Program-made: the position numbers and the translations under genes | Notes under the pieces: model-generated | Database searches by the model: none | Told to the model about the DNA's origin: nothing | The model's input: only the letters and a program-made list of their open reading frames with translations | Origin: Ancylothrix sp. D3o | Lineage (GTDB): Bacteria; Cyanobacteriota; Cyanobacteriia; Cyanobacteriales; Oscillatoriaceae | DNA: 64,000 nucleotides | Reading direction: 5' to 3' | Assembly (NCBI RefSeq): GCF_025370775.1 | Contig: NZ_JAMXEX010000005.1 | Location: 62,001 to 126,000 of the forward strand | In this document: positions 22,494-34,184 of the stretch, one piece after another | How positions within the stretch are numbered: position 1 is the stretch's first letter | Layout of the letters: every line of letters begins with the position of its first letter

Positions 22494-25400
22494 ATGGTTC
22501 AAGAACTTAGTCTCACAGCCAAGGGCCAATTTCCCGAAAGCGCACCGGCAGCAAATCCGGTATTCTTCAGGACGTACAGCCGGCGTACCCCCCAAGGACG
22601 CGAAACCTGGCAGGAAGTGTCACAGCGAACCGTCTCTGGGTTAGCAAAACTTGGCAACCTCACCCCCGATGAAACCGAACTCATTTACCGGATGCAGTGC
22701 GAATTAAAATCGCTCACGTCTGGCCGGTGGTTGTGGGTTGGAGGCACAGAATGGATCGAAAAACCAGAGAACTTTTCCGGCGCTTATAACTGTTCATCCA
22801 CCAATATTTGCGACTGGCGCGCCTTTGGATTATTGATGGATTTAGCCATGATGGGATGCGGCACCGGCGCCGTATTAGAACCCCGTTATATTAATCAATT
22901 ACCTGCAATTCGTAACCGCATTAACGTCAAAATTCAAGGCGAAATAGGCTCTACCATTGCCCAAAATCGCCGACAAGAAACTGATGTGAAAATAACCGGG
23001 AACGAGGTATTAATTAATGTTGGAGATTCGCGGCAAGGTTGGGTAAAGTCTTATCAAACTTTGCTGGAATTGTCAACTGATGAACGTTTTTTAAAAGAAG
23101 TAAATGTCATCATTGATGTTAGCGATGTGAGGCCGGTGGGAGAACCCTTAAAAGGATTTGGTGGCGTAGCGAATCCTGTTAAATTACCAGAATTATATAG
23201 CCGGTGTGCCGGAATTTTGAATAAGGCAATAGGCCGGCAGCTTAATTCTGTTGAATGTTGTTTATTGATTGATGAAGCTGCGGTAGTTGTGGTTGCCGGT
23301 AACGTCAGAAGATGTTTACCTGCGGGGGCACTTGTTCATGCAGAATCAGGCTTAATTCCCATAGAAAAAATCAGAATTGGGGATCGAGTTTTGACGAGCA
23401 AAGGCTTTTACCCCGTGACAAACTTTTTCGACCAAGGAGTTCAGCCTTTATGCCGTATCAAAACTCAGGATGGATACTTGGAGTGTACTGCTGACCATAA
23501 AGTAGCGGTTTTAACCGATGTTTATGGGAACTACAAAATGGTCAAAGCGAAAGACCTAAAAGAAGGAGATCGCTTAATTTTTGTACCGCAAGCAATACCA
23601 GGGACAGCCACCGAATTACCAAGCTTTAAACCCAAAGAGGGTAAGAAAGCTAAATGCCTAACGGTACCAGCTTTAACCACCGAAGTCGCCTATTTTTTAG
23701 GTTACTTACACGGGGATGGTTCTGTGGCGTCTGATACATGGCGAGTCAGATTCAGAATTGCTCAAGATTCACCTGAGATTATTGAGAAATTAATCGCAGT
23801 TGGTCAACAGTTTGGTTTAGAAACTTATACGCTGCGTTCCCCCGAACAGTGCCAAGCAAAAGCTTTTGAACTGCAATTCAATAGTAGTGCTTTAAATGAG
23901 TACCTATCTCAATTCAAAAAGCCGTTTACTTCGATTTCGATTCCTGACTGTATTTTGATGGGAACGGCAGACATTCGTAAGGCTTATTTGGCCGGTTTAG
24001 CTGATGCCGATGGCTGTCATTCTCAAGGGGTTTTGGTGGCTTCGGTTTATCCAGACTTCCTCCGACAAGTTCAAACAGTCTATGGGTCTTTGGGAATTAC
24101 GACACGCCTTTGTTCTTCAGTGCGGAAACGAACAGGTAAATGGGAAGGGGAACTGGTAACGGTAGGTGAGCGTGCTTTTGAAGCAGCAGAAACAATGCTG
24201 TTGAGTTATTCAGTATATTTTGCTCTGCGAAAACGCGAACGTCCTAAATCTTTCAAAGATCATGGTTTCCCGAAGGAAATGGTAAGACCTTTGGTGAATA
24301 GCTATCAATATGGATGGATCAATCAACAAACACAAATGATTGCTCCTACGTTGAAGAAATTTATCGCTGATGCAACAAATTTAATTCCTGTCAAAGTAGA
24401 CGGCGTTGAAATGGATGTAAGGACGGCACACACCTATGATATTGAGGTTGCCAGCATCCATGAATTTGTCTGTGAGGGAATTTTAGTGTCTAATTCTGCC
24501 GGCATGAGGCAAGGGGTAAGCGATGATAATTTGTTTGCCGGTGCTAAAGAAAATCTCTGGCAGTGCGATGAGGCTGGCAACTGGCGAATTGACCCCGAAA
24601 GGGATGCTTTACGAATGGCAAATCATACGCGCGTTTTCCACCGCAAACCAACCCTAGAAGAAACAATAGAGGCTGTACGAAAGCAATATTATTCTGGGGA
24701 AGGTGCGATTCAGTGGGCCGGTGAAGCAATTGCCAGAGCTAATATTGATTTGTTGCCGAATCAAGAAACTAAAAAGGCATTTTTGAAGGCTTACCAAGAA
24801 GGAACAATTAAAGAATGGTTCCAGACAAACTATCCCAATATGCCCGAACAAGAAATCGAGCATCGGTTAGCCCGTGTGGGGTTGAATCCTTGTGTGACGG
24901 CTGATACCTGGATTCATACAGAATTTGGCCCCCGTCAAGTTAAAGATTTGCTTGGCAAGCAGCACGGAACCTACGTCAATGGTGAACTGTTTAGTACGAC
25001 ATCTGAAGGCTTTTTCTATACAGGAAACCAACCGGTTTTAAAGGTAACGACTCACGAAGGCATTTCTCTGCGATTAACCCCCAACCATCAGCTTTTACGC
25101 ATCACCAGTCAAACCCAGAAACAGCAATACGTCGAATGGACAGCCACCGCAGATTTAAAACCGGGTGATAGGCTCTGTTTGCATAATCACCGGGATATTC
25201 AACCCTGGTCAGGAACGGGAACATTTGAAGAAGGCTGGCTTCTCGGCAGTTTGCTCGGCGATGGTTCACTTGCGGAAACTGCTTGGCATGACCAAGGCAT
25301 TCTCCGTTTTTGGGGTGAATCTCAGGATGAAATGATTGCATTGGCGGTGGCGACGCTTCAAGCAACAGTGACTTGCGGTAGTCATCTAGCTGGGCATTAC

Positions 25401-28037
25401 AACCCCCGCCATCATTTACAGCAAGTAACTTCCAGTGGCTTAGCCGTGCTGGCTGCTCAGTTTGGTCTTCGGAAGGGGCAAAAAGTTGTCACTCCTGAGA
25501 TTGAGCAATCGAGCTATGCCTTCCACTGTGGCTTTTTATGTGGTTTCTTTGATGCTGATGGCAGTGTTCAAGGCAGCCAACAAAAAGGCATAAGTATTCG
25601 CTTGGCCCAAAGCAACCTAGCAACGTTGACGGCGGTTCAACGAATGCTCCTGCGTATGGGCATTGTTTCAACGATTTATCAAAATCGTCGCTTAGGGGGC
25701 GTGCGTTTTTTGCCGGATAGCAATCGCAACCCCGCGCCCTATTTCTGCCAAGCGCAGCATGAATTGGTGATTGCCAACGATAACTTAAGCTGGTTCCGAG
25801 ATCGGATTGGCTTCCGTCAGCCCGACAAACAACATCAACTCAATGACTCACTGAGCAACTACAAACGCAATCTCAACCGTGATCGCTTCAGTGTCACTGT
25901 TGCCGCGATCGAACCCGATGGGGTGGAACCCGTTTATGACTGTACTGTTCCCGGCCCGGCACGTTTTGATGCCAACGGTCTTGTTGCTCACAATTGTGGT
26001 GAGATTATTGGAGCGAATTTTCACTGTGTTTCAGGAGAAACTCTACTCATTACTCGTGATGGCATCCACAAAATTAAAGATATTGTGGGACAAGAAATTG
26101 AAATTTGGAATGGGCTTCGGTGGAGTAAAGTTACCCCTTTTCAAACCGGCACCAATCAAAAGTTATATCGTGTCCGTTTTGGCGATGGTTCCTATCTGGA
26201 TGCGACAGAATATCATCGATTTTTTGTGAAAGATAGGTTTGGTAAGACTTATAAAGAAGTTCAAACCAAAGATTTGATGGATATCAGCCCCTACGCGATT
26301 CACACCGAACCTTTTACTATTGAGTATGAGGATGGTTTGGATATTGATGCAAACTATGCTTATACTTTGGGGGTTGCTGTTGGGGATGGTACTACCAATC
26401 GAAATCAAGCTAAAATTCGGCTGTATGATAAAAAGTCGGATTTATTAGTTGCGGGAAATATATCTCCCGTTCGTGAATATGGCTATGCACCGGCTTTTTG
26501 TGATGTCACTGATTTAGGGTTTTCTGGGGAGTTTCTCAAATCTCTAAAGACGAATCCTGAAGCGTTGAGTTTAATCGCAAGTTGGAATGTTAAAGCAATT
26601 TTACATTTTGTTGCCGGTGTCGCAGATACGGATGGTTCTAATACGGCTGGAAATGGTATTCGCATTTATATATCCGACTACGATCGTGCGTACCGTTTTC
26701 AATTGCTGTTGACCAAATGCGGTATCCGTTCATCTCTAAATCTTTGCGCTCATAAGGGTTCTGTAACAAATTATGGTGTCAGAGCGCAGGATTTGTATTA
26801 TCTACAAATCACAGATTGCCAGAAAATACCTTGTCAGCGTTTGGATACTACGAAGGGACGTAAATCAGTTGCTAAAGGTAAATGGCAAATTGTTCGTTCT
26901 GTTGAAGAATTGCCCGGATTGCATGAGACGTTTTGCTTTAATGAACCTGAGTTTCATAAAGGGGTTTTTGGGAATTCTCTAACAGGGAATTGCAATTTGG
27001 CGGAGGTTCACCTAAATCAAGTTAACCCGAAAAATGAAAAAGAAATTGAGGATGCTTTCAGCGCCGGCGCTCTTTCGGTAGCAGTTCTCCTCAATCACAA
27101 ATTTATGGAACCTCGTTACCAATACAGTCGGGAATTAGACCCAATTGTAGGGGTATCATTCACCGGCCTTTTTGATTTCTTTGTTACTGCTTTCGGCGTC
27201 GATTGGTTGCGCTGGTGGGAACAAGGCCGACCGGCTACCATGCAAGGATTAGAATTTAAACAACAGGAAGCCGAATATTTAAGCCGGTGGAAAAAAATAG
27301 TCCATCGTGTGATTTGGGATTATTGTGATCGACACAATTTAAAACGCCCCAATCGTTGTACGACGGTTCAACCGGCCGGCACAAAATCTTTGCTCACCAG
27401 CGCATCCCCCGGCTGGCACCCGCCAAAAGCACAGCGCTTTATTCGTCGCATTACCTTCCGTAAAAATGACCCCGTAGCTTTAGCCTGTATTGACTACGGT
27501 TATAATGTCATCCCCTCGCAATCAGATAAAGATGAAAATGGTAATTTACTTAATGATCCATTTTCCGAACGTTGTACAGAATGGTTGATTGAAATTCCTG
27601 TCTCCGTTCCTTGGGCCGATTTACCAGGAGCCGATGAAATTGAAATCAGCAAATTTAACGCTCTTGCACAAATGGATTTTTACATGAATGTGCAACAGAA
27701 CTGGACGGCGCATAATTCTTCAGCCACTATTGAGTTGCGTTCTGAAGAAGTCGAAGCCTTGGGAACGCGGATTTATGAGGCAATTCGGGATGATGAGGGG
27801 TATATTTCGGCGGCGCTTTTGGCTCGTTTTGATGACCTGCAATCTTTCCCCCGCTTGCCTTTTGAACCAATCAATAAGCAACAGTATGAGCAATTAGTCA
27901 AGGAAGTTAAAGAGCGCCGGCGTACAGAAGATTTCCACGCAGCGTTAGGGCGTTATGATCGCGGGGAAATGCCAGAAGCAGGGCCGGCCGGTTGCGACTC
28001 CGATAAATGTATGTTCCCAGAGCAAAAACCTGAATAA
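22494..28037 (+). CDS. nrdJ: Adenosylcobalamin-dependent ribonucleotide reductase (class II) with three inteins
   Basis: Class II reductase makes deoxyribonucleotides using a radical generated from coenzyme B12. The 1847-residue precursor contains three inteins (residues 274-667, 800-1167 and 1178-1499). Removing them leaves 763 residues, the size expected for the monomeric class II enzyme. The first redox cysteine is in N-C-S-S-T-N (C100); the thiyl-radical cysteine is in the spliced motif N-P-C-G-E-I (C1168); the second redox cysteine is in F-H-C-N-L-A-E-V (C1500); the C-terminal thiol pair is C-D-S-D-K-C (1834/1839). No frame breaks occur, so all three inteins must splice for the enzyme to form. 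It is followed by an inverted repeat at 28046-28090. B12 supply connects it to cbiA at 34.4 kb. It starts at the ATG at 22494; no ATG upstream in frame seems better. Confidence 0.93.
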   Translation: MVQELSLTAKGQFPESAPAANPVFFRTYSRRTPQGRETWQEVSQRTVSGLAKLGNLTPDETELIYRMQCELKSLTSGRWLWVGGTEWIEKPENFSGAYNCSSTNICDWRAFGLLMDLAMMGCGTGAVLEPRYINQLPAIRNRINVKIQGEIGSTIAQNRRQETDVKITGNEVLINVGDSRQGWVKSYQTLLELSTDERFLKEVNVIIDVSDVRPVGEPLKGFGGVANPVKLPELYSRCAGILNKAIGRQLNSVECCLLIDEAAVVVVAGNVRRCLPAGALVHAESGLIPIEKIRIGDRVLTSKGFYPVTNFFDQGVQPLCRIKTQDGYLECTADHKVAVLTDVYGNYKMVKAKDLKEGDRLIFVPQAIPGTATELPSFKPKEGKKAKCLTVPALTTEVAYFLGYLHGDGSVASDTWRVRFRIAQDSPEIIEKLIAVGQQFGLETYTLRSPEQCQAKAFELQFNSSALNEYLSQFKKPFTSISIPDCILMGTADIRKAYLAGLADADGCHSQGVLVASVYPDFLRQVQTVYGSLGITTRLCSSVRKRTGKWEGELVTVGERAFEAAETMLLSYSVYFALRKRERPKSFKDHGFPKEMVRPLVNSYQYGWINQQTQMIAPTLKKFIADATNLIPVKVDGVEMDVRTAHTYDIEVASIHEFVCEGILVSNSAGMRQGVSDDNLFAGAKENLWQCDEAGNWRIDPERDALRMANHTRVFHRKPTLEETIEAVRKQYYSGEGAIQWAGEAIARANIDLLPNQETKKAFLKAYQEGTIKEWFQTNYPNMPEQEIEHRLARVGLNPCVTADTWIHTEFGPRQVKDLLGKQHGTYVNGELFSTTSEGFFYTGNQPVLKVTTHEGISLRLTPNHQLLRITSQTQKQQYVEWTATADLKPGDRLCLHNHRDIQPWSGTGTFEEGWLLGSLLGDGSLAETAWHDQGILRFWGESQDEMIALAVATLQATVTCGSHLAGHYNPRHHLQQVTSSGLAVLAAQFGLRKGQKVVTPEIEQSSYAFHCGFLCGFFDADGSVQGSQQKGISIRLAQSNLATLTAVQRMLLRMGIVSTIYQNRRLGGVRFLPDSNRNPAPYFCQAQHELVIANDNLSWFRDRIGFRQPDKQHQLNDSLSNYKRNLNRDRFSVTVAAIEPDGVEPVYDCTVPGPARFDANGLVAHNCGEIIGANFHCVSGETLLITRDGIHKIKDIVGQEIEIWNGLRWSKVTPFQTGTNQKLYRVRFGDGSYLDATEYHRFFVKDRFGKTYKEVQTKDLMDISPYAIHTEPFTIEYEDGLDIDANYAYTLGVAVGDGTTNRNQAKIRLYDKKSDLLVAGNISPVREYGYAPAFCDVTDLGFSGEFLKSLKTNPEALSLIASWNVKAILHFVAGVADTDGSNTAGNGIRIYISDYDRAYRFQLLLTKCGIRSSLNLCAHKGSVTNYGVRAQDLYYLQITDCQKIPCQRLDTTKGRKSVAKGKWQIVRSVEELPGLHETFCFNEPEFHKGVFGNSLTGNCNLAEVHLNQVNPKNEKEIEDAFSAGALSVAVLLNHKFMEPRYQYSRELDPIVGVSFTGLFDFFVTAFGVDWLRWWEQGRPATMQGLEFKQQEAEYLSRWKKIVHRVIWDYCDRHNLKRPNRCTTVQPAGTKSLLTSASPGWHPPKAQRFIRRITFRKNDPVALACIDYGYNVIPSQSDKDENGNLLNDPFSERCTEWLIEIPVSVPWADLPGADEIEISKFNALAQMDFYMNVQQNWTAHNSSATIELRSEEVEALGTRIYEAIRDDEGYISAALLARFDDLQSFPRLPFEPINKQQYEQLVKEVKERRRTEDFHAALGRYDRGEMPEAGPAGCDSDKCMFPEQKPE
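23313..24494 (+). mobile_element. Intein 1 of nrdJ (394 residues, LAGLIDADG endonuclease)
   Basis: It starts with C274 (C-L-P-A-G-A-L-V-H) and ends V-S-N at 667, directly before Ser668. The extein junction becomes N-V-R-R / S-A-G-M-R-Q-G. Splicing block B has E-C-T-A-D-H-K. Two LAGLIDADG-type motifs are visible, L-G-Y-L-H-G-D-G and Y-L-A-G-L-A-D-A-D-G-C, so homing endonuclease activity is likely intact. The penultimate residue is Ser rather than the usual His, which can slow the last splicing step. Confidence 0.9.
24891..25994 (+). mobile_element. Intein 2 of nrdJ (368 residues, LAGLIDADG endonuclease)
   Basis: It starts at C800 (C-V-T-A-D-T-W-I-H) after L-N-P and ends with canonical V-A-H-N at 1167. 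The +1 residue is Cys1168, the predicted thiyl-radical cysteine of the reductase (N-P-C-G-E-I). Block B is L-T-P-N-H-Q. Endonuclease motifs L-L-G-S-L-L-G-D-G and L-C-G-F-F-D-A-D-G-S are present. Confidence 0.9.
26025..26990 (+). mobile_element. Intein 3 of nrdJ (322 residues, LAGLIDADG endonuclease)
   Basis: It starts at C1178 (C-V-S-G-E-T-L-L) only ten codons after intein 2 ends, and finishes ...N-S-L-T-G-N at 1499 before Cys1500, a redox cysteine of the reductase (C-N-L-A-E-V). The ending G-V-F-G-N-S-L-T-G-N with penultimate Gly is typical of inteins at this reductase site. Endonuclease motifs L-G-V-A-V-G-D-G and V-A-G-V-A-D-T-D-G-S are visible. Confidence 0.88.
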
Positions 28038-28659: not shown

Positions 28660-29730
28660 ATGGCAGACATCAAAGAGCCATCTTCTCAAGTACCAAGCTT
28701 AGATCGTGACTGTACAACCCTGTCGCGTCACGTTCTCCAACAACTCCAGAGTTTCGGCCCTGATGCTCAGGATCTCAGCGCTATTATGAACCGCATTGCC
28801 TTGGCGGCCAAGCTGATATCCCGCAGACTTTCGCGGGCCGGTTTGCTCGAAGGCGTTCTAGGCTTCACCGGCGAGGTGAATGTCCAGGGAGAATCTGTCA
28901 AAAAGATGGATGTTTATGCCAATGAGGTTTTCATTTCCGTTTTCAAGCAAAGCGGTTTAGTCTGTCGCTTAGCTTCCGAAGAAATGGATAAACCTTATTA
29001 CATTCCCGAAAACTGCCCCATTGGACGTTACACCCTGCTCTATGACCCCATTGATGGCTCCTCAAATTTGGATATAAATTTGAATTTGGGATCAATATTC
29101 GCCATTCGTCAGCAAGAGGGAAATGATGAAGATGGGGAAGCCCTAGATTTGTTGCAAAATGGACGCAAACAAATCGCGGCGGGTTATGTCTTGTATGGCC
29201 CTAGTACGATGTTGGTGTATTCAATTGGCAAAGGCGTACATTCGTTTACCCTTGACCCCAGTTTAGGAGAATTTATTCTTTCTTCTGAAAATATCACCAC
29301 ACCCACACACGGCTCGATTTATAGCGTCAACGAGGGAAACTTCTGGCAGTGGGATGAATCGATTCGAGACTATATTCGCTATGTCCACCGGCATGAGGGT
29401 TATACAGCCCGATATGGTGGAGCCTTAGTGGGTGATTTTCACAGGATTTTGTTTCAGGGAGGAGTTTTCTTGTATCCAGGGACACTGAAAAAACCAGAGG
29501 GTAAATTACGCTTGTTGTATGAGACAGCACCCTTGGCGTTTTTGATGGAACAAGCGGGAGGACGGGCCTCCACCGGCACGCAAGATATCTTAGATGTAGT
29601 CCCTGATAAAATCCATGCTCGATCCCCGCTGATTATTGGCAGTACAGAGGACGTAGCAATGGTTGAGTCTTTTATTCACGAGCGAGCGAGGGAAGAAGCA
29701 CTAAAAGCACAACCCTCCGCCGTCAGATAG
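28660..29730 (+). CDS. fbp: Class I fructose-1,6-bisphosphatase
   Basis: The enzyme removes the 1-phosphate from fructose-1,6-bisphosphate in gluconeogenesis and the Calvin cycle. The 356-residue protein has the class I fold, with the metal-binding motif D-P-I-D-G-S-S-N (about 128-135), A-S-E-E-M earlier and the substrate loop Y-S-V-N-E-G-N near 224. An [12 protein letters not shown] segment near 249 contains the conserved arginine contacting the substrate of the neighbouring subunit. It is the first gene of the fbp-tal-zwf-opcA cluster. A ribosome binding site GGGAGG is six to seven bases from the ATG. Its own upstream leader (28460-28659) has a hairpin-like CCTCTCTACATAGAGGGAGG overlapping the ribosome binding site, which could modulate translation (inference). 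Confidence 0.94.
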
Positions 29731-29839
29731 TTGGAATCGTTTAGGGCATTGAATTCATAGTTAATTGTTTTTCTCACAACAAACTTTAACTATTGAATCA
29801 TCAATACTACCCAGGAATTTTAGAAACAACAAAGAGAGT

Positions 29840-30985
29840 ATGACAATGGCAAACAATCCTTTATTACAGATTGAACAAGATTACAATCAAAGCATCTGGA
29901 TGGATAACCTGACTCGGAATTTAATTCAGTCAGGGGAACTTAAGGAAATGATCACGACTCGCGGCATCGTGGGGATCACTTCAAATCCGGCAATTTTTCA
30001 AAAGGCGATATCCGGTAATGTGGTTTACGATGCTGATATTGAGGCAGGGATTAAGGCCGGTAAATCAGTACAAGATATCTATGAATCTTTGGTGTTTGAT
30101 GATATTCGCAATGCCTGTGATATTTTTCGCGGCATTTATCAGCAAAGCGATGGTTTGGATGGCTATGTAAGTATTGAAGTGCCACCCGATTTAGCACACA
30201 ATGCCGAAAAAACAATTGCGGAAGCCAAACGTTATTACAGTGAGATTGGTCGGGATAACGTGATGATTAAGATTCCGGGGACACCGGAAGGCTTAAGGGC
30301 AGTAGAAGAGGTAATTGCGGCGGGGATCAATGTCAATGTGACTTTGTTGTTCTCGGTGCAAAGTTATGTGGAGACGGCCTGGGCGTTTATTCGCGGTTTG
30401 GAAGCACGGGCCGCTAAAGGCGAAGATATTTCTAATATTGCGTCAGTTGCCAGCTTTTTTATCAGCCGGATTGATATCAATGTTGATGCCCGGTTGGATA
30501 AGTTGATTGAGGCAGCCCAAGATGATGCCAAAAAAGAAGAACTGCGGGCGATGAAAGGTAAGTTTGCTATCGCTAACGCCAAAATTGCCTATCAGAAATA
30601 CAAGGAGATTATTCAGACAGACCGCTGGAAAGCTTTATCGGCAAAAGGCGCAAAAATGCAGCGATTGCTGTGGGCATCCACCGGCACCAAAGATCCAAAC
30701 TACAGCGATGTATTGTATGTCGATGAATTGATTGGGCCTAATACGGTGAATACATTGCCACCGGCCACTATCGAAGCTTGTGCGGATCATTGCGATGTGG
30801 CAAGTCGCATTGAAACCAATGTCGAAGAAGCTTATAAATTGGCTGAAGAATTACCGAAATTGGGCATTAACCTTGACGAAGTGATGGACGAACTGATTAT
30901 AGACGGCATTGATAAATTTATTCAGCCGTTTGAATCATTGATTAAATCCTTGCAAGAAAAGGTCGATAAATTAATGCCGGTGTAA
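29840..30985 (+). CDS. tal: Transaldolase
   Basis: Transaldolase moves a dihydroxyacetone unit between sugar phosphates in the non-oxidative pentose phosphate path. From ATG 29840 the protein has 381 residues, the long cyanobacterial/actinobacterial type. Landmarks are G-I-V-G-I-T-S-N-P-A-I-F near residue 40, the Schiff-base lysine in M-I-K-I-P-G-T near 140, V-N-V-T-L-L-F-S near 165 and the C-terminal region with A-S-T-G-T-K-D-P. AAAGAGAG precedes the start; an alternative ATG lies two codons later. The gene follows fbp by about 110 bases and precedes zwf, as in other cyanobacteria. Confidence 0.94.
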   Translation: MTMANNPLLQIEQDYNQSIWMDNLTRNLIQSGELKEMITTRGIVGITSNPAIFQKAISGNVVYDADIEAGIKAGKSVQDIYESLVFDDIRNACDIFRGIYQQSDGLDGYVSIEVPPDLAHNAEKTIAEAKRYYSEIGRDNVMIKIPGTPEGLRAVEEVIAAGINVNVTLLFSVQSYVETAWAFIRGLEARAAKGEDISNIASVASFFISRIDINVDARLDKLIEAAQDDAKKEELRAMKGKFAIANAKIAYQKYKEIIQTDRWKALSAKGAKMQRLLWASTGTKDPNYSDVLYVDELIGPNTVNTLPPATIEACADHCDVASRIETNVEEAYKLAEELPKLGINLDEVMDELIIDGIDKFIQPFESLIKSLQEKVDKLMPV

Positions 30986-30989
30986 GCAT

Positions 30990-31090
30990 AGTCATTAGTC
31001 ATTGGTCAAGAGTCATTAGTGGCGCAGGCGTCCCGCCTGCCAAGGACAAAGGACAAAAGACAAACGACAAAAGACCAATGACTAATGACT
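30990..31090. repeat. 18-bp perfect inverted repeat of CATTAGT-type repeats with internal GC hairpin
   Basis: AGTCATTAGTCATTGGTC (30990-31007) pairs with its exact reverse complement at 31073-31090. Between the arms sits GCAGGCG-TCC-CGCCTGC (31024-31040), a second hairpin, then a run of GGACAAA/GACAAAA units. The element fills the tal-zwf spacer. Confidence 0.85.
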
Positions 31091-31127
31091 CTTGACAAAA
31101 AAAGCAATAGAAGGAAAACAATAAAAA

Positions 31128-32657
31128 ATGGTAACACTGTTAGAAAACCCCCTCCGCCTTGGCCTAACCCAAGAACGCACCCCGGAACCGTTGATTTTAG
31201 TTATCTTTGGCGCATCGGGTGATTTAACTCAGCGTAAACTGGTACCGGCCCTCTATCACCTCAAACGCGAACGCCGACTGCCTGCCGAAATTACGATTGT
31301 CGGTGTAGCCCGCCGGCCCTGGAGTCACGATTATTTCCGCGAACAAATGCGCGAAGGCGTCGAACAATTTTCCGATGGTATTGGTTCCGAGGAACTTTGG
31401 AAAGACTTCGCAGAAGGCTTATTTTACTGCTCCGGCGACATCGACAACCCCGAAAGCTACCAAAAACTAAAAACCTTCCTGAATGAACTCGACGGAATGC
31501 GGGGAACTCGTGGCAACCGTGTTTTTTATCTCTCGGTTTCTCCTAACTTTTTCCCCGAAGCTATTCGTCAGTTAGGAGGGGCCGAGTTGTTAAGTGATCC
31601 CACCAAAACCCGCTTAGTTATTGAAAAACCCTTTGGACGCGATCTGGGTAGCGCCAAATTCTTAAACCGCGTTGTTCAACAAGTTTGTAAAGAAAACCAA
31701 ATTTATCGAATTGACCACTACCTAGGGAAAGAAACCGTCCAAAACCTCCTGGTCTTCCGCTTTGCAAACGCCATCTTTGAACCCCTGTGGAACCGGCAAT
31801 TTGTCGATCATGTTCAAATCACCGTTGCCGAAACCGTCGGAGTTGAAGACCGCGCCGGCTACTATGAAACCAGCGGGGCCTTGCGAGACATGGTACAAAA
31901 CCACCTCATGCAGCTTTTCTGCCTCACGGCAATGGAACCTCCCAACGCCCTCGACGCCGATAGCATCCGTACCGAAAAACTCAAAGTCCTCCAAGGTACT
32001 CACCTCGCCGATGTCCGCAACTTAGAACACTCCGCGATCCGAGGCCAATATAGTGCCGGTTGGATGAAAGGCAACCCCGTCCCCGGTTATCGTCAAGAAC
32101 CGGGAGTCGATCCCAATTCTACGACTCCTACCTACGTCGCTATGAAACTGCTTATCGATAACTGGCGGTGGAAAGGCGTACCCTTTTATATGCGTACCGG
32201 CAAACGTCTCCCCAAAAAAGTCTCGGAAATTGCAATTCAATTCCGTGAAGTGCCTTATCTGATTTTCCAATCAGCCGCCCAACAAGCCTCTCCCAACGTC
32301 CTCACCCTCCGCATTCAACCAAACGAAGGTATTTCTCTACGCTTTGAAGTCAAAACGCCCGGTATCACCCTCCGCACTCGTCCCGTTGATATGGACTTCA
32401 GCTATGGTTCCACCTTCGGCAAAACCTCTGGCGATGCCTACGACCGGCTTTTACTAGACTGTATGCTAGGCGACGCCACTCTGTTCACCCGTGCTGATGA
32501 AGTAGAAGAAGCATGGCGTGTTGTCTCACCGGCCCTCAATGCTTGGGACGCCCCGGCAGATCCGGCAACTATCCCCCAATATGAGGCCGGTACTTGGGAA
32601 CCCGCCGAAGCTGAACTACTCCTCGAACGCGACGGACGCCGGTGGCGCCGGTTGTAA
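31128..32657 (+). CDS. zwf: Glucose-6-phosphate 1-dehydrogenase
   Basis: G6PDH oxidises glucose-6-phosphate with NADP and starts the oxidative pentose phosphate pathway, the main source of NADPH at night. The 509-residue protein has the Rossmann motif [10 protein letters not shown] (about 28-37), the substrate-binding R-I-D-H-Y-L-G-K-E near 195-203 and R-T-G-K-R near 353. The cysteines involved in redox and OpcA control in cyanobacteria are present around C178/C434-like positions but I cannot confirm exact equivalence. The start is ATG with AGAAGGAAAA upstream. It is followed by opcA. Confidence 0.96.
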
Positions 32658-32670
32658 AAAGCGTTTTTTG

Positions 32671-32790
32671 TCAAACAGTCATTTGTCAAACAGTCATTTG
32701 TACGAGTGTGCAATGAGTAATGAGCAATCAGCTAACTGTTTTTTGTTATTTGTACGAGTGACTAATGACTAATGACTAATGACTAATGAC
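32671..32790. repeat. Short tandem repeats between zwf and opcA (15-mer twice, TGACTAA heptamer four times)
   Basis: TCAAACAGTCATTTG occurs twice back to back (32671-32700). The heptamer TGACTAA is repeated four times without error at 32759-32786, ending TGAC. TACGAGTG also occurs twice. This is the short tandemly repeated repetitive (STRR) type known from cyanobacteria. Confidence 0.9.
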
Positions 32791-32822
32791 TACACCAATA
32801 ACAAATGACAAAAGGATAAATT

Positions 32823-34184
32823 ATGACAGTACAAACAGCACCAATTTATTCTCTGCAAGCGCCCAAAGATGTATCCATTGCCGACATTGAAGCCGAACTT
32901 AGTAAAATTTGGCAAAGTTATAGCGGTATGGGTGATGTGAATAACATCCCCACCGCCACTCGCGCCGCAACTTTTAGTTTACTGGTGTACGAACCTGAAG
33001 AAACTCAACAACTTTTAGCTGCTTTGGGTTATTACACCGGCCCTATTGATGGTATTGGTGGCCCGCGTATGGAAGCCGCTTTAGCTGCTGCTCAAAAAAC
33101 CTTTGGTTTGCCGGTGACAACTAAACCCAATAACGAAACCCTCGTTAAACTTCGGGAAGCGTTTGCTCAAAGCTTCGATGGTGGTGATGGGAAAAATGGA
33201 AATGGCAAGAGCCGGTATTCGGCTGATGCCAAAAGTACCATCGCTGACGAAATTGCTTCCCGTAACCCCTGCCGTATTATTACTCTTTGCCCGGTTTCTG
33301 GGGAAGATGAAGGTGTCAGCGCTCAAGTTTCGGCCTATTGTCCTATCAATAAACAAAGCAGCAATACTCTGATCTGCTGTGAATACATCACTCTCAAAGG
33401 AACTGTAGAAGCTTTGGAACGAGTGGGGGGTATGATTGGAGCTTTATTAATTGGCGAGTTGCCTAAATTCCTGTGGTGGAAAGCAGCCCCGGATATTAAT
33501 ATGGGCTTATTCAAACGCCTTGCTGACGACAGCAACTCGGTTATTGTAGACTCCAGCGCTTTTAATGACCCAGAAGTTGGTGTGCGGCGCGTCCAAGCCC
33601 TCATTGATGCCGGTATTGCTGTGGCGGATCTCAATTGGCGCCGGCTGGCCCCCTGGCAAGAATTAACGGCTGAAGCTTTCGATCCCCCAGAACGTCGCTC
33701 TGCTATTTATGAAGTTGATCGCGTTACCATTGACTACGAAAAAGGCAATCCTAGCCAAGCTTTAATGTTTTTGGGTTGGCTGGCAAGTCGTCTGGGTTGG
33801 GTGCCGGTTTCTTGCCAACAAGAAGACGGCGATTATCAAATTAAACGCATTACATTCCAAGGTAAAGACAACAAAGAAATTGAGGCAGAACTTGCTGCTA
33901 TCCCCACTGCTGACTGGGGTGATATTCCTGGTGATTTAATTAGTTTGCGTCTGACTTCTACTAACGAACAAGCCGACTGCTGTACTGTTCTTTGCTCTCA
34001 AACCACCGGCTGTATGCGGATGGAAGCTAAAGGCGGTGCCCAAGCTTGTCGCATTCAGCAGGTAGCGCCTCGCAGTGACCAAAAAGCTGAAATTCTCCTC
34101 AGCCAACAGTTACAACGTTGGGGACGCGAAATGCTTTATGAGGAAAGTTTGGCTGTGACTTCTCAAATTCTTAAGTGTCAATAG
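32823..34184 (+). CDS. opcA: G6PDH assembly / activating protein OpcA
   Basis: OpcA binds and activates glucose-6-phosphate dehydrogenase and its effect is controlled by redox in cyanobacteria. The 453-residue length and its position directly after zwf fit. An N-terminal peptidoglycan-binding-like helical segment (T-G-P-I-D-G-I-G-G-P-R-M-E-A-A near 77-91) is followed by a linker rich in G/N/K and the main domain with L-I-C-C-E-Y-I, L-P-K-F-L-W-W-K near 213 and several cysteines near the C-terminus (D-C-C-T-V-L-C, T-G-C-M-R-M) that could be the redox switch. A ribosome binding site AAAGGA lies seven bases before the ATG. Confidence 0.94.
   Translation: MTVQTAPIYSLQAPKDVSIADIEAELSKIWQSYSGMGDVNNIPTATRAATFSLLVYEPEETQQLLAALGYYTGPIDGIGGPRMEAALAAAQKTFGLPVTTKPNNETLVKLREAFAQSFDGGDGKNGNGKSRYSADAKSTIADEIASRNPCRIITLCPVSGEDEGVSAQVSAYCPINKQSSNTLICCEYITLKGTVEALERVGGMIGALLIGELPKFLWWKAAPDINMGLFKRLADDSNSVIVDSSAFNDPEVGVRRVQALIDAGIAVADLNWRRLAPWQELTAEAFDPPERRSAIYEVDRVTIDYEKGNPSQALMFLGWLASRLGWVPVSCQQEDGDYQIKRITFQGKDNKEIEAELAAIPTADWGDIPGDLISLRLTSTNEQADCCTVLCSQTTGCMRMEAKGGAQACRIQQVAPRSDQKAEILLSQQLQRWGREMLYEESLAVTSQILKCQ

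Follow-up and report, generated by a model that had tools for sequence, protein, structure and literature searches.

Three putative homing inteins in a cyanobacterial class II ribonucleotide reductase gene, two at catalytic cysteines and one in exclusion with a neighboring intron

Introduction

Class 1 inteins begin with Cys or Ser, carry a TxxH in block B, end in Asn, and are followed by Cys, Ser, or Thr at the +1 position of the host protein; a penultimate His is usual but not strict. Among cyanobacteria, Trichodesmium is said to have several inteins and introns in one ribonucleotide reductase (RNR). The requirement for Cys, Ser, or Thr at +1 is also stated in passages of PMC2814812. A group I intron in the RNR gene of Nostoc punctiforme (Meng 2007) and introns in other cyanobacterial nrd genes are cited in passages of PMC12702839 and PMC3984707, and nrdE of SP-beta has both an intron and an intein ('Lightning strikes twice', 1998, as related in excerpts of PMC3653736 and PMC6293099). 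Excerpts of PMC10643990 describe neighboring inteins in the MCM gene of Haloferax, where both occur together more often than expected.

Here we analyze a nrdJ gene within a window of 64,000 nucleotides, the whole stretch of DNA under study, from the cyanobacterium Ancylothrix sp. D3o. It resembles the reported Trichodesmium reductase in being loaded with several inteins but differs in that no intron was found in the gene. It belongs to the same gene family as the intron-bearing Nostoc gene; its relatives have an intron between extein residues 407 and 408, whereas this gene has an intein six nucleotides away. As in SP-beta, an RNA intron and inteins occur in an RNR gene, that of SP-beta being, from the same excerpts, a class Ib gene of a Bacillus phage. 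Like the Haloferax MCM gene, nrdJ is an essential replication gene with neighboring, patchy, and mobile inteins, but here the double intein occurs at chance level and the strong signal is exclusion between intein and intron. RNR inteins are a known kind of element, of which this gene is a further case, with a clear pattern of intein-intron exclusion.

Results

A class II reductase with inteins at catalytic cysteines

A first-pass annotation had read the open reading frame in Table 1 as a class II RNR with three inteins, and the enzyme assignment held. The precursor scored above the cut-off of 340.05 bits for TIGR02505, the class II ribonucleoside-triphosphate reductase family. Once joined after removal of the inteins, the 763-residue extein had a single PDB match at E<=0.001 by phmmer, 1l1l, the Lactobacillus leichmannii RTPR (E 3.1e-31), in which the NPCGEI and CNL motifs of the two proteins coincide and precursor residues C1168 (extein C406) and C1500 (extein C416) fall on chain positions 408 and 419. 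This alignment was the check that the annotation itself had proposed. We take C408 of RTPR to be the thiyl-radical cysteine and 119/419 to be its redox pair; on that reading, inteins 2 and 3 are each followed directly by a residue in a catalytic position, as had been claimed.

Three other cysteines, C100, C750, and C755, were invariant in 13 of 13 NrdJ sequences compared. By its YNC/NNC motif C100 is the probable counterpart of the redox cysteine C119 of RTPR, on which the HMMER alignment left it unplaced, and C750 and C755 would, also by motif, be the C-terminal cysteine pair. TIGR02505 and the alignment to 1l1l thus both identify a class II monomeric RNR (NrdJm/RTPR), "monomeric" being here the family name. 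The thiyl cysteine and one redox cysteine of that family are placed by alignment and C100, C750, and C755 by motif, with the roles that these cysteines have in the family.

NrdJ is the only RNR detected in the genome and seems to be the only one of the cell. The genome (6.57 Mb, 95.7% complete) contains one NrdJ locus and has no match to PF00268 or PF13597. PF02867 also found nothing in the genome, which we rejected as proof that there is no second RNR, since this model misses this very NrdJ as well; the absence of PF00268 and PF13597 is the better evidence. Downstream of nrdJ, at 28660-34184 of the window, is a cluster of FBPase, transaldolase, G6PD, and OpcA genes that looks ordinary for a cyanobacterium.

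Table 1. Features of the nrdJ gene, in positions of the window
Feature	Position	Strand	Detail
ORF of the NrdJ precursor (adenosylcobalamin-dependent class II RNR, three inteins)	22494..28037	+	1847 codons plus stop; TIGR02505 720.6 bits
Extein segment 1 (residues 1-273)	22494..23312	+	includes C100 (codon 22791-22793), putative assignment
Intein 1 (C274-N667, 394 aa)	23313..24494	+	LAGLIDADG; +1 S668; ends ..LVSN
Extein segment 2 (residues 668-799)	24495..24890	+	ends ..GLNP
Intein 2 (C800-N1167, 368 aa)	24891..25994	+	LAGLIDADG; +1 C1168; ends ..VAHN
Ten-codon extein segment C1168-H1177 (CGEIIGANFH)	25995..26024	+	C1168 aligns to RTPR C408
Empty insertion point (TGTGGT / GAG) of the nearest relatives' 407/408 intron	26000..26001	+	lies 6 nt downstream of where intein 2 inserts
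Intein 3 (C1178-N1499, 322 aa)	26025..26990	+	LAGLIDADG; +1 C1500; penultimate Gly; ends ..LTGN
Extein segment 4 (residues 1500-1847)	26991..28034	+	C1500 aligns to RTPR C419; CxxxxC pair C1834/C1839

Three probable class 1 inteins

The intein boundaries in the annotation proved right to the residue, and its description of the crowding, ten extein residues between inteins 2 and 3, was accurate. Each intein has the class 1 residues: C1, a block-B TxxH (TADH, TPNH, and TEYH), a C-terminal N, and a +1 residue of S, C, and C, respectively. The LAGLIDADG motifs noted earlier are present in all three inteins, which are full-length, as an acidic pair, GDG and D(A/T)DG, and PF14528 matches each. Against Pfam the whole precursor scored 90.8 bits for Intein_splicing (cut-off 35.8) and 134 bits for LAGLIDADG_3 (cut-off 22.5); taken singly, inteins 1 and 2 were matched by Intein_splicing and intein 3 was missed.

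AF2 models of intein 2 (pLDDT 89.8) and intein 3 (80.9, weaker over residues 126-159) matched intein-plus-endonuclease structures in Foldseek, such as TliVMA (PDB 7qsu) and PI-SceI (1dfa), with the same splicing domain and LAGLIDADG endonuclease fold at 12-19% identity. The HINT splicing fold is therefore indicated by modeling for inteins 2 and 3 and by Pfam Intein_splicing for inteins 1 and 2. The hosts of TliVMA and PI-SceI are VMA ATPases.

The penultimate residues, given correctly beforehand as Ser, His, and Gly (S666, H1166, and G1498), include the usual His in intein 2, and the Ser of intein 1 and Gly of intein 3 are each common within their own site family. The last two residues were HN in 43 of 43 extracted inteins at the site of intein 2, GN in 36/53 and GQ in 17/53 at that of intein 3, and HN in 39/58 and SN in 19/58 at that of intein 1. 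In 41 sequences, C1, the block-B T and H, and C304 of intein 3 were invariant. On this evidence the three are separate class 1 inteins that can probably splice, each with a putative homing endonuclease of the LAGLIDADG type; all three would splice and their endonucleases cut. A precursor that keeps its inteins cannot function as an RNR, and with no other RNR detected, splicing would be needed.

Occupancy of the insertion sites across cyanobacteria

Insertion sites were named by extein position: A (273/274), B (405/406), and C (415/416) for inteins 1 to 3, I (407/408) for the intron, and D (545/546) for a further intein site. The extein matched 258 loci, of which 206 remained once redundant ones were removed; leaving out 19 more, whose coverage was under 600 or did not include the loop, gave 187 genes. 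L151, L154, and L158 missed the motif, and their sites were set by hand from the sequence ends. At B, I, and C, 83 of the 187 genes had no insert, 36 had I, 21 had C, 21 had B, 15 had B and C, 11 had I and C, and 0 had B and I. Site B was thus filled in 36/187 genes, site C in 47/187, and both in 15/187, and the exact empty site is present in many relatives. A double intein at the two catalytic cysteines is a recurrent state. L238 (G152), which is outside the 187 owing to its coverage, has a cellular NrdJ in which all four sites, A, B, C, and D, hold an intein. At L152:4821-4898 we noted a group II intron signature (RF00029), in a locus where about 2.5 kb interrupts NrdJ near residue 84.

Because the full set was sampled with bias, the best-scoring matches (L032-L111) favoring uninterrupted genes and L226-L260 being mostly picked for having inteins, tests were made on an order draw of 93 genes (106 matching genomes, the rest lacking retrieved coordinates, redundant, or unusable). 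Here B was filled in 23 genes, I in 37, and C in 32. B and C occurred together in 8/93 genes against 7.4 expected in a tree-aware simulation, which is chance level; in all 187 genes the pair was somewhat above independence (Fisher p 0.018), a result set aside owing to the sampling bias. I and C also occurred together in 8/93, slightly below independence (Fisher p 0.045), but the simulation expects 9.4, so the deficit was not borne out. Parsimony on the tree of the 93 genes required at least 20 changes of B, at least 17 of I, and at least 20 of C.

Exclusion between intein 2 and the 407/408 intron

The combination of B and I behaved differently from the other two. It was found in 0/93 genes (Fisher 1e-6), whereas 7.9 +/- 3.5 genes are expected if the elements evolve independently on the extein tree, and none of the 995 simulations retained from 3000 runs, after a filter on marginal counts, gave 0. 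With B+C and I+C at expectation, these results indicate that elements 6 nt apart exclude each other, and the test gives no sign of interaction between elements at a distance of 24-30 nt. The likely mechanism is that either element, once in place, destroys the endonuclease target. We found no description of intein-intron exclusion of this kind, or of a four-intein phage NrdJ, among the open-licence papers searched.

The three nearest relatives of this gene, with exteins 84% identical, are without inteins 2 and 3 and have the intron, which lies 6 nt downstream of the point where intein 2 is inserted here. Among the ten nearest NrdJ genes the intron is present in 8, including the seven nearest, and intein 2 in one. 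As the intron occupies the seven nearest genes, intein 2 probably took the intron's place in this lineage. Replacement of the intron as a general route to intein 2 was considered but found no support: the nearest B-free relative has the intron for 12/36 B genes, against a background of 47/151.

The insert at 407/408 is taken as a putative divergent group I intron from its sequence characters. It is preceded by T and ends in G in 47/47 cases, as expected for a group I 5' exon U and terminal intron G, and classical group I core motifs were found in 5/47. The gathering score of RF00028 was reached by 3/18 loci. The main type, judged from intron starts, makes up 42/47, and neither of two copies tested matched the Rfam group I model even at E<=1. 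Among 20 non-redundant copies of this type, 39/60 predicted pairs change on both sides, the pairs being predicted from the same alignment. A 5-bp GCGUA/UACGC complement of the P7 kind, lying outside the nested alifold structure, was present in 28/38 main-type introns, shorter in 3, and not found in 7; it was located by pattern, is conserved rather than covarying, and is counted without a chance control, and the P3-P7 topology is read from the alifold structure. This compact covarying type, mostly about 250-350 nt (L097:7240-7491, L017:1181-1506, and 40 similar), may represent a divergent subgroup of group I introns that Rfam lacks. Two loci have 1153-bp introns at this site (L098:7240-8392 and L153:3302-4454), possibly with an inserted element or endonuclease gene.

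Relatives of the inteins in cells and phages

The closest relative of intein 2 lies in another order: in G229 the intein is 77% identical and the extein 70%, whereas the siblings with 84% identical exteins are without intein 2. For intein 1, an 80% identical intein occupies the same site in L129/G021, and intein 3 has relatives of 76-79% identity in 12 other genomes of 386 searched. At site B, distances between inteins are barely correlated with those between exteins (Mantel r 0.12, p 0.078, 36 genes), but intein and extein distances agree at site A (r 0.85, LVSN type, 14 genes) and site C (r 0.61, 47 genes), so part of the history at these two sites may be vertical. The exons flanking inteins 2 and 3, examined in windows of 30 and 12 codons, showed no tract co-converted from foreign DNA; codons 331-450 are most like those of siblings without these inteins.

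Five uncultivated contigs in IMG/VR carry a site-C intein 72-75% identical to intein 3. All five (5/5) have a terminase (PF03237), and in one the neighbors of NrdJ include a phage-type SSB and exonuclease. In two of them (L276 and L277) inteins fill all four sites, A to D. A third has those at B, C, and D; a fourth, whose contig starts inside the gene, has those at A, C, and D; and the fifth has frameshifts. The A copy of the four-intein genes in L276 and L277 is a 134-residue mini-intein. Splicing columns of the phage A inteins are 81-82% identical to those of intein 1, and the extein segments 57-71%. Among viral NrdJ rows, duplicates and partial genes included, 42/66 had no insert, so inserts are the exception there; a 2026 preprint (PMC12918982) reports inteins in eight of 18,717 marine viral RNRs. 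Isolate phages (50,697 records) had no match of at least 60% identity to inteins 1-3. The candidate role of a phage as direct donor of inteins 1-3 found no support, since the best phage copies reach about 75% (C) and 56% (B) over the intein and 82% (A, splicing columns only) against 79%, 77%, and 87% for cellular ones, in a comparison that excludes the site-B inserts of L269 and L315. Phages may be vectors of NrdJ inteins.

A separate viral locus, L324:6056-6958, has a 301-residue intein directly before the C100 counterpart (GAYN / CTSTNL), ending in LTGN. If C100 is the equivalent of C119, all three active-site cysteines serve as an intein +1 residue somewhere in the NrdJ family.

Discussion

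These data support with high confidence a model in which selfish homing elements compete for those codons of an essential gene that are most conserved, leaving three probably splicing-competent inteins in the only RNR detected. After translation, inteins 1-3 would cut themselves out by way of the +1 nucleophiles S274, C406, and C416 of the mature enzyme, and C406 and C416 would then act as the thiyl-radical cysteine and one of the redox cysteines. The homing endonucleases would target the most conserved codons of the gene. Since inteins need C, S, or T at +1 and the catalytic cysteines are highly conserved, these cysteines are natural targets, and homing can explain the crowding.

The first-pass annotation had gone further and proposed that the crowding makes splicing an on/off switch for dNTP synthesis, a claim that is unsupported by our results, though not disproved. 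Conditional splicing of inteins 2 and 3, for example in response to redox state, might gate dNTP synthesis through two +1 thiols that are both catalytic. The geometry permits this, with Cys at both C1 and +1 of two junctions, an invariant cysteine (C304) of intein 3 in the region taken as block F, and no other RNR detected; redox-controlled inteins are known elsewhere, as described for the P. abyssi PolII intein (PMC5874633). However, if the host depended on the switch, it should have been conserved, and its one distributional prediction fails: the pair is patchy and not conserved among relatives, B and C are independent rather than kept together, the three nearest relatives have neither intein, turnover on the 93-gene tree is frequent, and intein 2 hardly follows its host gene. 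A search of the window at Rfam gathering thresholds gave 0 matches to regulatory RNA. We regard such a switch as very unlikely; patchy occupancy, transfer between orders, intein-intron exclusion, and phage-borne copies fit mobile selfish elements better than a dedicated device. It is also very unlikely that the gene is decaying or partly dead, with one intein (most likely intein 3) splicing poorly and the strain relying on residual activity or another RNR. The penultimate Gly of intein 3, its failure on its own to match Pfam Intein_splicing, and a genome of 95.7% completeness, in which another RNR could be missed, would agree with decay. Yet close relatives of intein 3 persist in those 12 other genomes, its splicing residues and C304 are invariant, its predicted structure resembles inteins of the PI-SceI type, and the whole frame of 1847 codons is open.

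Homing could also have delivered inteins 2 and 3 jointly, as one block co-converted from a double-intein donor. That the pair recurs in 15 of the 187 genes, and that G229, the best match to intein 2, has both inteins, would suit such an arrival. But intein 3 of G229 is only 58% identical to ours, against 77% for its intein 2, which points to different closest sources, the flanks of both inteins are sibling-like, and neighboring inteins of haloarchaeal MCM rarely co-home, according to the excerpts of PMC10643990. We therefore consider arrival as a block unlikely and favor independent elements competing for conserved codons.

A more specific form of this homing model, for and against which we find the case evenly balanced, is that the NrdJ catalytic loop is a contested homing locus. 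An intein at the thiyl codon and a divergent, mostly Rfam-invisible intron of group I type 6 nt downstream would exclude one another, and one would have replaced the other in this lineage, while a second intein, ten codons further along, would coexist with either of them. Phages with up to four NrdJ inteins would act as carriers, and in viruses the third active-site cysteine would also be a +1 residue. If this is true, an RNA parasite and a protein parasite compete directly for one catalytic codon.

The gene illustrates the extent to which inteins can target the active site of an essential enzyme that is still encoded by a single open frame: in what is seemingly the only RNR, two catalytic thiols would first serve as splicing nucleophiles. 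Phage-borne reductase genes are possible carriers of such inteins, and the NrdJ catalytic loop lends itself to a clean natural test of how protein and RNA parasites compete over a single site.
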